From contig NZ_QXED01000001.1 in assembly GCF_003583365.1 (NCBI RefSeq), positions 124,001 through 188,000 on the forward strand: 64,000 bases of DNA, given 5' to 3'. The DNA is from Fibrisoma montanum. Lineage in GTDB: Bacteria; Bacteroidota; Bacteroidia; Cytophagales; Spirosomataceae. The number at the start of each line of letters is the position of its first letter. Position 1 is the first letter of the stretch. The position numbers and the translations under genes are program-made. Positions 58,573 through 64,000 of this stretch are shown here, in pieces. The notes below the pieces were generated by a model. The model ran no database searches. It was not told where the DNA came from and was given only the letters and a program-made list of their open reading frames with translations.

Positions 58573-60081
58573 TTACCGCCAGTACGGCATTTCTGCCTGA
58601 GAAAGTGCCTGCGTCCGGTTACCGCCGGTGATGTCCAGCACGAACACGTTCCGCTGACCGGTGCCGGTATTATCGGTATTAGTAAAAATTACGCGCGAAC
58701 CATTCGGTGAGAAACGCGGGTCAAGATCATTGGTGCCGGTGGGTTTCACGTTGACATTCTGGTTGTTGACCCGCAGCGTCGACAGATCCACTAGTTCACC
58801 CGTCGCCAGCGTCAATAGGGTAAGTCGTGCATCGAGCTGCCGGCCCTGCTCATTCGAAAAATCACTTACGTCGTACGAGAACAGCACTTGCCGGCCATCA
58901 ACGGAAAACACGGGATTGCTCACCCGACTGTTCGGCCGACTGAAGACCAGGTCGGGTTGCCCGCCATCCGGCGAAAAGAGCAGCAGATTATTATTGTACA
59001 GATTACCGTTTGTTATCCGGGCGATGATGCGATTCCCTACGCCGGTCCAGTCGCAGCCGGCAAACGTCTGTCCCGGAGCCGCCTGCCCCACCAGCCGCAG
59101 CCCGGTTCCGTCAGTCCGGACGGCATACAGCTTATCGTTGCTCGGATAGAGCAGTTGTGTTCCGTCCGGCGACCAGCAGAATGACAGATCCGTGGCCGAC
59201 AGACCCGCCACCGGTACGTTCGTTACCCGGCGCAGGCCACTGCCGTCGCGGTTCATTATGTACAGATGCAGGTCAGTTTCGGCGTTGGAAATAAACGCAA
59301 TCTGCTCCCGATTCGGGCTCACAATAGGCCGCCAGTTGCTGCCCACGCTGGTCAGCTGAATGGCATCGCGGTCTGTGTTCGCCGTAAAAATCTGGTAACG
59401 CCCGTCGATGCGCCGGGCAAACACGTAGGCAAAATCCGGGAACGGGATCGTCCGGAACGACCATACGTCGCTGTTGACGGTGTTGACGCCGTCTTTAACG
59501 ATCACCTGCCAGTAGTACGTCGCGTTGTAGGCCAGGTTGTCGACCACCAGCGTATCCTGCCGGACGCCCGTGTACGACCGGGTTGGGGTCGTGCTGCCTT
59601 CGCGGAACAGCAATACGTCGTACGTCAGCGTATCGCGGTTGGGGTCAGTTGCTTTCCAGCGCAATATTGGCCGGATCGGTACCTGCGTAGCACCGGGTGC
59701 CGGACTGGGCTGCGATGCGGCCGTGGGCGGACGGTTCTGCGCCCGGTCGTTCACGAGCAACACCGTCACAACGGCAATCAGCGACTGGTCCGATTCGACC
59801 GTTACGACCTCCGACCGGAAGCCTTCTTTCGTTACCTGGATGGTGTATTTACCGGCCAGTACGCTGTCAAATCGAAAATTACCCGTTGAGTCGGTTTCGG
59901 TAATCCGGCCGGCCGGACTGAGCCTCACCAGCGCATCCCTGACCGGCTGACGATCAGTGTTAAGCAGCACCTGGCCCCGAACGGAGCCTACCTGCCGCGG
60001 TTCAACAAACGTGTCTTCTTCGCACCCCCACAGGAGCACCAGATTGGCAAGAATGCCAAGCACTACGATCAAATATCTCAT
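58573..60081 (-). CDS. Curli-operon lipoprotein with Ig, FN3-like and TolB-like propeller domains
   Basis: A 502-residue lipoprotein (lipobox LWGC, Cys20). Domains in order: carboxypeptidase regulatory-like Ig (about residues 30-110, VRGQVLLNTDRQPVRDALV), a fibronectin III-like domain (about 120-215, TYDVLLFREG and ATYYWQVIVKDG), and a PD40/WD40-like beta-propeller (about 220-500) with blades marked RRIDGRYQIFTAN, LHLYIMNRDGSGLRRVT, SWSPDG-like CWSPDGTQLLY and DPRFSPNGSRVIFTN. It is 56 bases after csgG as the last gene of the curli operon. Nothing equivalent exists in the Escherichia coli csg operons. It is probably an envelope-anchored accessory protein of the curli system; that role is inference. 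Confidence 0.85.
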   Translation of the reverse strand: MRYLIVVLGILANLVLLWGCEEDTFVEPRQVGSVRGQVLLNTDRQPVRDALVRLSPAGRITETDSTGNFRFDSVLAGKYTIQVTKEGFRSEVVTVESDQSLIAVVTVLLVNDRAQNRPPTAASQPSPAPGATQVPIRPILRWKATDPNRDTLTYDVLLFREGSTTPTRSYTGVRQDTLVVDNLAYNATYYWQVIVKDGVNTVNSDVWSFRTIPFPDFAYVFARRIDGRYQIFTANTDRDAIQLTSVGSNWRPIVSPNREQIAFISNAETDLHLYIMNRDGSGLRRVTNVPVAGLSATDLSFCWSPDGTQLLYPSNDKLYAVRTDGTGLRLVGQAAPGQTFAGCDWTGVGNRIIARITNGNLYNNNLLLFSPDGGQPDLVFSRPNSRVSNPVFSVDGRQVLFSYDVSDFSNEQGRQLDARLTLLTLATGELVDLSTLRVNNQNVNVKPTGTNDLDPRFSPNGSRVIFTNTDNTGTGQRNVFVLDITGGNRTQALSQAEMPYWR

Positions 60082-60137: not shown

Positions 60138-61553
60138 CTACTTCTTCGCCACATTTTTCGGTGTGGGGGGTGTAAAACGGCCCAGGTTCAATACCAGCCC
60201 CAGCGACGCCCGGAGGTAATAGTCGTTGAAGCGACCAGCCGTGATGCCGTCGAGGTCGTCGGTGAGGGGCTGGGCGTACTCCAGCGTGGTCCGGAAGCTG
60301 ATGGCCTTAGCGGGGGTGTACTGAAGCCCGATACCGCTGTTGATCTTATAATAACGACTTCCCTCCAGCTCGAAAGCCGTATTGCCGCGCCGGGAGATCA
60401 TTCCCGCCCCGACGTAGAAGAACGGCGTTGTGCGCTGGAACGGCAGCATCCGGAAAAACAGGTTGGCATCCAGCGTACTGACGTTTGACCGGAAGGTTTC
60501 GCGGCTGGCCAGCGTCCCCACTCCGCCGTTAAGCTGAAGGGCGAACACCGGTGTGATGTGGAAATCGAACGAGGCACCGTAGCCCGTTTCGAGCACCCGC
60601 CGACCGTAGTCGCCCGAGTAGCGCCAGACCGCTCCGTAGGGTTGCAGACACCAGAACGGGGCATTCATGGGATATTTCCGGACCCCATATACGTCCGTCT
60701 CGCTCATCTCGGTCTTTTCCTTGTCGTAGGCGTCGAGCAGCGGTTTGGTCTGCGCGACCGCTTTGTCGTTTACGGCCCACAGCCCATCGCGGATCCCCTC
60801 GATCACCAGTGAGTGAACCGCCTTTTCAATAGCCTCCGTTACGGCCATCTGCGCCGGTTCGTTGGTGGTAAAACCCGTTTCAGCTTCCAGCAGCCGCTTG
60901 AACCGGACGTAACGGAAAATTCCGGCATCGACCGACTGCGACAGGATGGTTTTCGACGTGTACACCGTTTTGAGAATCTTGCCCGACCGGGTTGCTACGG
61001 CCCGCAGATACACCGTTACGCGGTCCTGCCGGTACTGCGTGGAACCACCCGTGGCGAAATACTTCAGACCCGCCCCGCCCGTGATGATGTTGGCGTCGTA
61101 GGAAACCACGCCCCCTTCCAGAATAACACCCGCGAACAGCAGCGGGGGCAGGTTTTCGCCGTCTTTGTACTGTGCTACGCTGGACCGTACGATCTTCCGT
61201 TCGTTCAGAAGGTTACCAACGTTTTCGCGCTCGATGGGCGTAAACCAGCCGCTTTCTTCGAGGGCCTTCAGCAGAATGTTGGTCGTACCCTGCGATACGG
61301 CCGTCGAGAACGTAGAGCCGACCTCCGACTGCTTGTACTGACCGGTCTGATCACGGAATTTGTAGACGGCCGCTACCACCTTTTCCTTGGCGGGGGGCAG
61401 TCGACGCAGTTCAGTTGTGATGGCCGTTTCTTCGCCCAGCCGGGCGGCCCGGGGACGGGTTGGCTGATGAAAATAGGGGCTACACCCGGTTAGTACCCAG
61501 CCCAATGCCGAGACGATTACCCAGGGTAATGCTCTTCCCTGTAGGAATGACAT
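60138..61553 (-). CDS. csgG: Curli secretion channel CsgG with C-terminal beta-barrel-like extension
   Basis: A 471-residue outer-membrane lipoprotein (lipobox LTGC, Cys24). The CsgG domain (about residues 45-275) shows VVAAVYKFRDQTGQYK, ALEESGWFTPIERENVGNLL, LLFAGVILEGGVVSYDANI and QYRQDRVTVYLRAVATRSG, matching the nonameric secretion pore of curli systems. Escherichia coli CsgG ends at 277 residues; here about 190 residues follow (about 290-465) with barrel-like strands such as ASFDFHITPVFALQLNGGVG, FFYVGAGMISRRG and YLRASLGLVLNLGRF, resembling a small OM beta-barrel protein. It follows csgF by 37 bases. Confidence 0.93.
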   Translation of the reverse strand: MSFLQGRALPWVIVSALGWVLTGCSPYFHQPTRPRAARLGEETAITTELRRLPPAKEKVVAAVYKFRDQTGQYKQSEVGSTFSTAVSQGTTNILLKALEESGWFTPIERENVGNLLNERKIVRSSVAQYKDGENLPPLLFAGVILEGGVVSYDANIITGGAGLKYFATGGSTQYRQDRVTVYLRAVATRSGKILKTVYTSKTILSQSVDAGIFRYVRFKRLLEAETGFTTNEPAQMAVTEAIEKAVHSLVIEGIRDGLWAVNDKAVAQTKPLLDAYDKEKTEMSETDVYGVRKYPMNAPFWCLQPYGAVWRYSGDYGRRVLETGYGASFDFHITPVFALQLNGGVGTLASRETFRSNVSTLDANLFFRMLPFQRTTPFFYVGAGMISRRGNTAFELEGSRYYKINSGIGLQYTPAKAISFRTTLEYAQPLTDDLDGITAGRFNDYYLRASLGLVLNLGRFTPPTPKNVAKK

Positions 61554-61590: not shown

Positions 61591-62013
61591 TCAGAAATAT
61601 GGAACCGTAACGGTGGTTTCGCCCCCGCGGCCATCCGTGATGCGGATAATGATGCCGTCGGTTCCGTTGGTAATATCGACCTGAAAATCGCCGAACCGGT
61701 ACGTACCCTCCTTAATATCCTCTTCGCCGAACTGCTGGTTAACGAGGTTGTTGGTGATCCGGCTTAACAACTGCCGCTGTAAACTTTCGGCAAAGCTGTT
61801 GAGGGTATTCTGGCTCGTGTTGGTCGACGTTGTCGTACGCTGAATGCTGGGGTCTTTGAGCTTATCCTGCGCCTGGGCAGAGCTGAGCATCCAGGCGTAA
61901 TTGAAGGTGTTGCCGCCGAACGATGGGTTCACCGGGCGGTAGATCAACTGCTGACCGTGGGCCATAGGCAGACCCAGCAGAAGCCAGCAGCTCCACTGTA
62001 GAACTCGTTTCAT
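61591..62013 (-). CDS. csgF: Curli assembly protein CsgF
   Basis: A 140-residue secreted protein with a signal peptide (MKRVLQWSCWLLLGLPMAHG). The mature N-terminus QQLIYRPVNPSFGGNTFNY is the conserved CsgF segment that plugs into the CsgG pore in known structures, and YRFGDFQVDITNGTDG is the second family signature. CsgF couples secretion to nucleation on the cell surface. It lies 44 bases after csgE and 37 before csgG. Confidence 0.95.
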   Translation of the reverse strand: MKRVLQWSCWLLLGLPMAHGQQLIYRPVNPSFGGNTFNYAWMLSSAQAQDKLKDPSIQRTTTSTNTSQNTLNSFAESLQRQLLSRITNNLVNQQFGEEDIKEGTYRFGDFQVDITNGTDGIIIRITDGRGGETTVTVPYF

Positions 62014-62057: not shown

Positions 62058-62576
62058 TCAAAAAATACCGGACCCTCGCTGGTCCTCATCACCCAGTTGC
62101 TGCTGAGTGTCCCGGTAACTGATAATGTACTGACGGATCGTTTCGACCGCATTCAGCGCGTACTCTTCGATCACATCCTGCCGGGCCTGCACGAACTGCT
62201 GCCAGAGGAGCTGATCATTGACCGACACCGATACGATGTTGCCGATTCCCGATGTAGAAGGCAGTTCCTCGATGGTGACCAGAAACACATCCAGTTCAAA
62301 ATCCAGGGGTTTGCGGGCCAGTTGACTCGTGTCGGCCGGGGCCGAGGGCGGAGCGTTGACGTAGGCTTTATAGAACGTTTCGTAGAAATCGCGACCAATC
62401 TTGCTGCGGGTATTGTCGAGCAGCAGACTCTCGGCGCCTTCTTCGGTGAGCGTTTCTTCCTTCAGCACTTCATTCAGATCGCCCATACCTTCTACTTCCG
62501 GGTCCTGCGCCAGGCAGAAACTGCTGACGAATACGCCCAGCAGAAAGGCCACAAACCGGACGTAGCGGTGATTCAT
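62058..62576 (-). CDS. csgE: Curli assembly protein CsgE
   Basis: A 172-residue periplasmic protein with a signal peptide (MNHRYVRFVAFLLGVFVSSFCLA). The CsgE domain starts near residue 50: LLLDNTRSKIGRDFYETFY, then FELDVFLVTIEELP, IVSVSVNDQLLWQQFVQ and a C-terminal TIRQYI helix. CsgE caps the CsgG pore and delivers subunits. An acidic stretch (about residues 25-48) before the domain is longer than in Escherichia coli. Its ATG overlaps the stop of the upstream curlin-like gene by 4 bases. Confidence 0.93.
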   Translation of the reverse strand: MNHRYVRFVAFLLGVFVSSFCLAQDPEVEGMGDLNEVLKEETLTEEGAESLLLDNTRSKIGRDFYETFYKAYVNAPPSAPADTSQLARKPLDFELDVFLVTIEELPSTSGIGNIVSVSVNDQLLWQQFVQARQDVIEEYALNAVETIRQYIISYRDTQQQLGDEDQRGSGIF

Positions 62577-63070
62577 CGGACGTTGGTGATTTGTAACTGC
62601 ATCCCACCCGACTGCTCTACCTTGATGGGCACGCCCGTCGCGAACGGATAGCCGTCGCTGGTCAGGCGGTTGCCGTCGCCCCGCTGGGTGATCTCAAGCT
62701 GCTCGTTGCTGGCCCGTACGTTGCGCAGGTCCAGCGTGTTGCTGTTGCCGAGCTGCCCAAACGTGAAGGTGTTCTGATCGCCGAGCAACTCCAGACCCAG
62801 CTGATTGCCATTCCCGTTCTGCGTAAAACTCAGGCGATTGCCGGTTCCTCCTCCCGACAGGTTCACGCCGTTGCCCGCGCCGGTCTGGCTGATGGCAATC
62901 TCCGGTGAGCCGCCCGTGGTGGTCTGCCCCGGCGTAAACTGCGACAGCACGGCCTGCGTCTCATCGGAGAACTGCACGCCCGGCCGCCATAAGGCTTCTG
63001 ACTGGACCTGCGACTGTGCGCAAACCCCAAACGGCAGGAACGCGATCAACCAAACTAGATTACGTATCAT
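62573..63070 (-). CDS. CsgB-like minor curlin subunit
   Basis: A 165-residue exported protein (signal peptide MIRNLVWLIAFLPFGVCAQ from the ATG at 63070). Its central part (about residues 55-145) has curlin-type repeats with Gln and Gly-Asn pairs: EIAISQTGAGNGVNLSG, RLSFTQNGNGNQLGLEL, FTFGQLGNSNTLDL and LEITQRGDGNRL. Non-repetitive segments flank the repeats at both ends. Its length and position, second after the large curlin gene and overlapping csgE, suggest a nucleator like CsgB, but it could be another structural subunit. Confidence 0.8.
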   Translation of the reverse strand: MIRNLVWLIAFLPFGVCAQSQVQSEALWRPGVQFSDETQAVLSQFTPGQTTTGGSPEIAISQTGAGNGVNLSGGGTGNRLSFTQNGNGNQLGLELLGDQNTFTFGQLGNSNTLDLRNVRASNEQLEITQRGDGNRLTSDGYPFATGVPIKVEQSGGMQLQITNVR

Positions 63071-63172
63071 GATTCTCTGGAAGTTAGGGTTAAAAACGGC
63101 CACCGGGTCAACATTCTGCAACACGAACCCGATGAACCGTTTTAACCATCCACACTGGTTACCTGTTTGCGA

Positions 63173-64000
63173 TTAGGGGTTGACCTGCTGCGAAATGACC
63201 AGGTTACCGGCTCCGGTCTGGTTCAGCAGCATGCTGTTGCTTGAAGTACCAACACCCGTCTGCGTAATGTTGGCCTCATTGTTCCCACCGTTCTGCGTAG
63301 CAAACGTATCGACACCGCCAAGGCCACCGACTTTGTTCCCGTCCCCGTTTTGGGTGATGGTTGCAATCTGGTTACCGGTTCCCTGATCGATCAATACGCG
63401 GTTAGCTGTGCTGGTAGCGCCGTTCTGCTGCTTTACGGTAAGCTGATCGCCACCGTTCTGCTTGGCTTTCGTTTCGTCGCCACCATCCTGCGTGATATTC
63501 ACTTTGTTCGAGTTGCCCGAAACATAAAGACCACGTGCCGAGGTAAGATCAACGATTGTGCCACCACCGCCACTGGTACCAACTTTGTTACCGTCACCAT
63601 TCTGGGTGATTTTAACCTCATTTTTGTTACCAACGCCAGTTGCATTACTTTCAATGGCCATGTTTACCTGATTGGCACTGGTAGCTCCATTAGAGCCACC
63701 ACCCGTCTGAGATATAGTAACCTCGTTATAGTCACCACTAATAAACAGGCCACGCCGGGAGTTGGAAATTCCAGTACCTGTTTCAGCACCACTGTTGTCT
63801 CTACCAATCCAGTTCCCAGCGCTTCCGCCTTGTGAATCCTGATTGACTGTTACAGTGTTGTTATCACCGTTGATTTCGGCGTTTACACGGTTACGAGTAA
63901 ACGCTTGACCATTTTGACCAATCTGAGTTATGAACACTTTATTATCCATACCAGGCGTTCCAGTTGGAGACCCGTTGTCTCCGTAGACCCGTACACTTGC
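63173..64000 (-). CDS. Curlin-repeat major subunit (CsgA-like), 5' part outside the window
   Basis: At least 275 residues of curlin-type repeats; the frame is still open at base 64000 (upstream of an internal ATG at 63949 it reads VRVYGDNGSPTGTPG), so the start and signal peptide are missing. Repeats have the pattern N-x-(V/I)-x-I-(T/S)-Q-x-G-x-G-N: NKVFITQIGQNG, NEVTISQTGGGS, NEVKITQNGDGNKVG, NKVNITQDGG, ATITQNGDGNKVG and NEANITQTGVG. Glycine-rich loops of variable length separate them. Such subunits form functional amyloid outside the cell. It is the first visible gene of the curli operon, 102 bases before the CsgB-like gene. Larger than the 151-residue Escherichia coli CsgA. Confidence 0.88.
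   Translation of the reverse strand, partial: ASVRVYGDNGSPTGTPGMDNKVFITQIGQNGQAFTRNRVNAEINGDNNTVTVNQDSQGGSAGNWIGRDNSGAETGTGISNSRRGLFISGDYNEVTISQTGGGSNGATSANQVNMAIESNATGVGNKNEVKITQNGDGNKVGTSGGGGTIVDLTSARGLYVSGNSNKVNITQDGGDETKAKQNGGDQLTVKQQNGATSTANRVLIDQGTGNQIATITQNGDGNKVGGLGGVDTFATQNGGNNEANITQTGVGTSSNSMLLNQTGAGNLVISQQVNP

Follow-up and report, generated by a model that had tools for sequence, protein, structure and literature searches.

What does a lipoprotein gene do at the end of a curli operon? In the 64,000-nucleotide stretch of Fibrisoma montanum DNA analysed here (the window), the strand order is curlin, short curlin, csgE, csgF, csgG and then a lipoprotein gene, and a sequence-only reading had proposed that this last gene, 56 bases after csgG, encodes an extra curli component. 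The open reading frame coordinates, which give a 56-bp gap, and matches to csgE, csgF, csgG and curlin models agree with that placement:

58573-60081, minus strand: lipoprotein gene, 502 aa, last in the curli run (ORF with ATG start, domains, conserved linkage)
58576-59442, minus strand: six-bladed TolB-like propeller, residues 214-502 (Foldseek, VIA-align)
59449-59721, minus strand: FN3-like domain, residues about 121-211 (AlphaFold2 strands; profile match to solved FN3 domains)
59773-59985, minus strand: CarboxypepD_reg-like domain, residues 33-103 (Pfam PF13620, 8.9e-12)
60007-60024, minus strand: Cys20 plus EEDTF, an acidic stretch at +2 to +6 resembling a lipoprotein export signal (LES; motif compared with PMC5080379)
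60025-60081, minus strand: signal peptide, residues 1-19, lipobox LLWG/C (sequence)
60138-61553, minus strand: csgG, 471 aa (Pfam CsgG, 6.9e-64)
about 60177-60659, minus strand: C-terminal 8-stranded OmpA/NspA-like barrel of CsgG, residues 299-459 (AlphaFold2, Foldseek)
61591-62013, minus strand: csgF (Pfam CsgF, 2e-44)
62058-62576, minus strand: csgE (Pfam CsgE, 1.3e-12)
62573-63124, minus strand: short curlin, minor-subunit (CsgB)-like (NCBIfam CsgA/CsgB models, 1e-6 and 8e-6)
63173-64000, minus strand: major curlin, truncated at the end of the window (Pfam Curlin_rpt, 9.9e-12)

The major curlin continues beyond the window, as an 850-aa open reading frame in L092. The AlphaFold2 model of CsgG has moderate overall confidence (74) and high confidence within the barrel; the same C-terminal 8-stranded OmpA/NspA-like barrel is seen in the alignment of Bacteroidota CsgG proteins (A3). 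An operon terminator had also been proposed and was not borne out: 3′ of the lipoprotein stop codon lies a 7-bp G+C-rich hairpin without a T-run, the predicted folding of this stretch is not significantly stronger than that of shuffled sequences (z −1.5), and terminator and promoter scans gave results no better than shuffles. In the nearest named genome, Fibrisoma limi (L099, CsgF 96%), the lipoprotein gene is followed by a gluconolactonase-like gene as in the window, a neighbour that is not common to the remaining curli loci.

The lipidated cysteine, Cys20, is nearly invariant across the lipoprotein alignment (A2). Behind it, the FN3-like domain and the TolB-like propeller assigned by the sequence-only reading were both recovered, but its 'Ig' segment proved to be the CarboxypepD_reg-like domain. 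Single-sequence searches of the lipoprotein against solved structures gave weak matches and the profile was more useful; short-form relatives have a Pfam fn3 match. PD40 repeats were detected by Pfam (2.3e-9), and the AlphaFold2 model has a pLDDT of 92.6. The best structural match to the propeller is TolB (Z 28.6, 2.6 Å over 250 residues, 18% identity), although the protein scores 62.2 bits against the TolB equivalog TIGR02800, below its 343-bit cut-off. None of the named Csg families (CsgC, CsgE, CsgF, CsgG, CsgH and curlin) matched it in Pfam or NCBIfam, so that, if it is a curli component, it is a new one. The next-best match to it in the F. montanum genome scores 32 bits, against 1130.

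The sequence-only reading had named a survey of csgEFG neighbourhoods in Cytophagales as the check on its proposal, and the outcome strongly supports an extra curli component through conserved linkage and co-occurrence. CsgF is present in 28 of 241 Cytophagales genomes; in all 28 the lipoprotein gene follows csgEFG, in the same orientation. A full-length lipoprotein was found in none of the 213 CsgF-negative genomes. Weak matches in two genomes (G119 and G047) were general PD40 propeller proteins and were set aside. The naive Fisher p value for the co-occurrence is below 1e-32, inflated because related organisms share history. The lipoprotein gene is the final gene of the curli run, on the same strand, in 29 loci, and the gene that follows is rarely shared; it also follows csgG in each of the six loci fetched for further families of the class. 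We then have 80 named Bacteroidota loci, fetched with CsgF as an independent marker, of which 78 carry the lipoprotein gene downstream on the same strand; in the other two (L103 and L105) the contig ends before the gene could appear. It lies at most 566 bp from csgG in 68 of the 78 loci (median 30 bp) and farther downstream in ten. The Cytophagales, other-family and named-locus sets overlap, and their counts are not additive.

Genomes with two curli loci have a lipoprotein copy at each (G230; Spirosoma fluviale, L107 and L123). In a decayed locus (G060, L086) csgE adjoins a fragment of the lipoprotein propeller, and csgF and csgG were not found in that genome. Lipoprotein and CsgG distances correlate at 0.91, a value inflated by the same kinship, with a maximum of 0.13 in 300 permutations. 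By sequence comparison, the lipoprotein has been inherited and duplicated together with CsgEFG.

The association extends to other classes of the phylum. An operon-end lipoprotein is encoded in 15 of 20 loci fetched from them. Profile searches placed it within the curli region in G766 and as the last gene of a curlin run 180 kb from csgEFG in G782 (L209); in G707 the curli locus is on a short contig and the lipoprotein match on another. The remaining two loci belong to family f101, which has a divergent CsgF: no clear lipoprotein copy was found in the three f101 genomes searched, and their CsgG matches stop before the C-terminal barrel. The usual neighbour of the lipoprotein gene is a short curlin in the outer classes and csgG in most Bacteroidia. 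Because CarboxypepD_reg domains are common in the phylum, gene position is part of the case for homology in the outer classes. The lipoprotein thus closes essentially every Bacteroidota curli cluster examined, the divergent family f101 excepted, and for this reason we consider it, on genomic evidence, very likely to be an overlooked part of the Bacteroidota fibre-making machine.

The propeller is less constant than the gene. Among the 78 lipoproteins, 63 are long, with the propeller, and 15 are short (211-225 aa) and lack it. The short forms come from Cyclobacteriaceae and from Carboxylicivirga, Seramator and one Prolixibacteraceae genome. Trees of CsgG and of the lipoprotein, thinned to 57 loci, each require a single long/short change. 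In both trees the short-form loci of Bacteroidales fall with Cyclobacteriaceae, a placement that would be consistent with transfer of the whole operon. Outer-class forms mostly have the lipid anchor and CarboxypepD_reg and, behind these, another kind of domain, about 90 residues long; one (L192, 134 aa) has nothing beyond anchor and CarboxypepD_reg, and two (L182, cut by the edge of the fetched region, and L195) are of the propeller form. The module common to all forms in the phylum is the CarboxypepD_reg-like domain. To judge from its absence from 15 of 78 loci, the propeller is dispensable; this absence, and the different C-terminal domains of the other classes, argue against a core role for it and against the suggestion that the propeller is the functional hub.

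The N terminus bears on where the protein acts. Surface-lipoprotein export signals in this phylum consist of a polar or basic residue and then acidic residues after the lipid cysteine (PMC5080379). The F. montanum protein fits this pattern: with CEEDTF, positions +2 to +6 relative to the lipobox cysteine are polar and acidic. At least two acidic residues occupy these positions in 55 of 62 lipoprotein homologues, with fewer in seven, and in 0 of 45 CsgG proteins of these operons, which provide an internal contrast. The motif predicts that the lipoprotein is probably exposed on the cell surface. The lipoprotein has the LES-like signal and its operon partner CsgG does not, which speaks for surface exposure and against a link from the pore to peptidoglycan, the role suggested by the sequence-only reading.

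Our preferred explanation, to which we give about an even chance of being right, is that the lipoprotein is an obligate, surface-anchored accessory of Bacteroidota curli, with an N-terminal module for tethering either the fibre or the secretion complex and with exchangeable C-terminal heads. The lipoprotein would be flipped to the outer leaflet. There its CarboxypepD_reg-like base would hold the amyloid on the cell as it grows, by binding either the minor curlin at the base of the fibre or the CsgG-CsgF complex at its extracellular rim. The C-terminal head differs between lineages (FN3, FN3 plus TolB-like propeller, or another β domain) and may lengthen this contact or make it more specialised. 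Contact with the fibre is suggested by the short curlin as the usual outer-class neighbour and by the split cluster of G782; contact with the pore by the closeness of csgG in most Bacteroidia and by the joint absence of barrel and lipoprotein in f101, which is one clade. The two contacts are not mutually exclusive. Anchoring of the fibre by the lipoprotein is plausible; with csgG as the neighbour in most Bacteroidia, a role in the secretion complex fits equally well.

Such a role is the first competing explanation. If the lipoprotein bound the OmpA-like barrel of CsgG and helped to assemble, stabilise or gate the pore, the proximity of csgG in 68 of 78 loci would be expected; CsgG of this group has an 8-stranded barrel, other surface lipoproteins of the phylum are known to partner outer-membrane barrels, and family f101 lacks both barrel and lipoprotein. 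However, the f101 contrast comes from a single clade, and in G782 and most outer-class loci the lipoprotein goes with curlins rather than csgG; we regard a secretion-complex partner as unlikely, though the strongest of the competing explanations. Small β-sandwich modules encoded beside curlins also bring to mind a fibre-quality factor, in which the CarboxypepD_reg/FN3 base would work outside the cell as a chaperone like CsgC/CsgH, preventing curlin polymerisation or setting its timing. This is improbable, given that the lipoprotein has no match to CsgC or CsgH in Pfam at E 0.001 and that Hymenobacteraceae and Flavobacterium also have a separate CsgH-like protein.

The closest fold to the propeller is TolB, as would be predicted for a periplasmic linker that joins the curli pore to peptidoglycan or Pal, but the LES-like N terminus, the shortfall against the TolB equivalog (62 bits for a cut-off of 343) and the lack of a propeller in 15 of 78 loci make such a linker still less probable than a chaperone. 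Least credible of all is a surface lipoprotein with nothing but the transcript in common with curli. The curli role is read from sequence, which leaves room for a chance neighbour, but linkage across the phylum, copies kept in duplicated loci, decay together with the operon and a history in common with CsgG speak heavily against one.

Comparison with known systems places the obligate accessory proposed here in context. CsgE, CsgF, CsgG and the curlins belong to the same families as in E. coli curli (type VIII secretion, CsgBAC-DEFG). The match to solved CsgG spans profile residues 11-279; E. coli CsgG has 277 aa and no C-terminal barrel, whereas Bacteroidota CsgG has one. To our knowledge, the E. 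coli curli system has no lipoprotein other than CsgG. TolB of the Tol-Pal system shares the six-bladed propeller, but our protein differs in its lipid-anchored CarboxypepD_reg-FN3 base, its curli gene context and its 18% identity. Like LES-bearing Bacteroidota surface lipoproteins (PMC5080379), it has polar and acidic residues directly behind the cysteine; unlike them it is linked to curli genes, and its surface exposure is predicted. As a parallel to barrel-paired BtuG (PMC10404256), the operon of our lipoprotein encodes a barrel-bearing protein; pairing between the two is putative. CsgH of Alphaproteobacteria is an earlier case of an extra gene that became a fixture of curli clusters in a single bacterial group (PMC3521004, PMC4838910); our lipoprotein, lipid-anchored and multi-domain, gives no match to PF21112, the Pfam family specific to CsgH.

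CsgH-like sequences also occur in these operons. In a group of Flavobacterium-titled loci (one titled [Flexibacter]), CsgH-like and CsgE sequences lie in two frames in 18 of 18 loci (L137, L142, L146, L149-L152, L155, L157-L159, L163, L164, L166, L168, L171, L174 and L177; for example L163 9254-9984), overlapping at a run of exactly ten A, possibly a site of programmed slippage to judge from the sequence. Four loci (L154, L172, L173 and L175) have one long CsgH-like/CsgE frame without the ten-A run. CsgE of L094 (10497-11228) and L095 (9948-10679) has an extra N-terminal part resembling the Hymenobacteraceae CsgH-like protein, and in f12 genomes CsgH-like genes adjoin the lipoprotein gene (L075 11532-11939, PF21112 2.5e-7; L079, L080, L081 and L084).

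In the literature searched, mostly open-licence papers, we found no published mention of this curli lipoprotein. The curli surveys searched were built on models of CsgA to CsgH. By term search, the word lipoprotein is absent from one of 2012 and from a 2025 review, which describes the operons by CsgA to CsgH. Most Bacteroidota may have a distinct curli machine, a picture we hold tentatively and at clearly less than even chances: a CsgG ring with an OmpA-like barrel per subunit and an obligate surface lipoprotein with interchangeable heads, holding the fibre base outside the cell. A phylum-wide extra component, if true, would alter the definition of a complete curli operon and give a specific marker for it, and attachment of the amyloid fibre would become testable in Flavobacterium johnsoniae, which has a copy of the lipoprotein (in L163).
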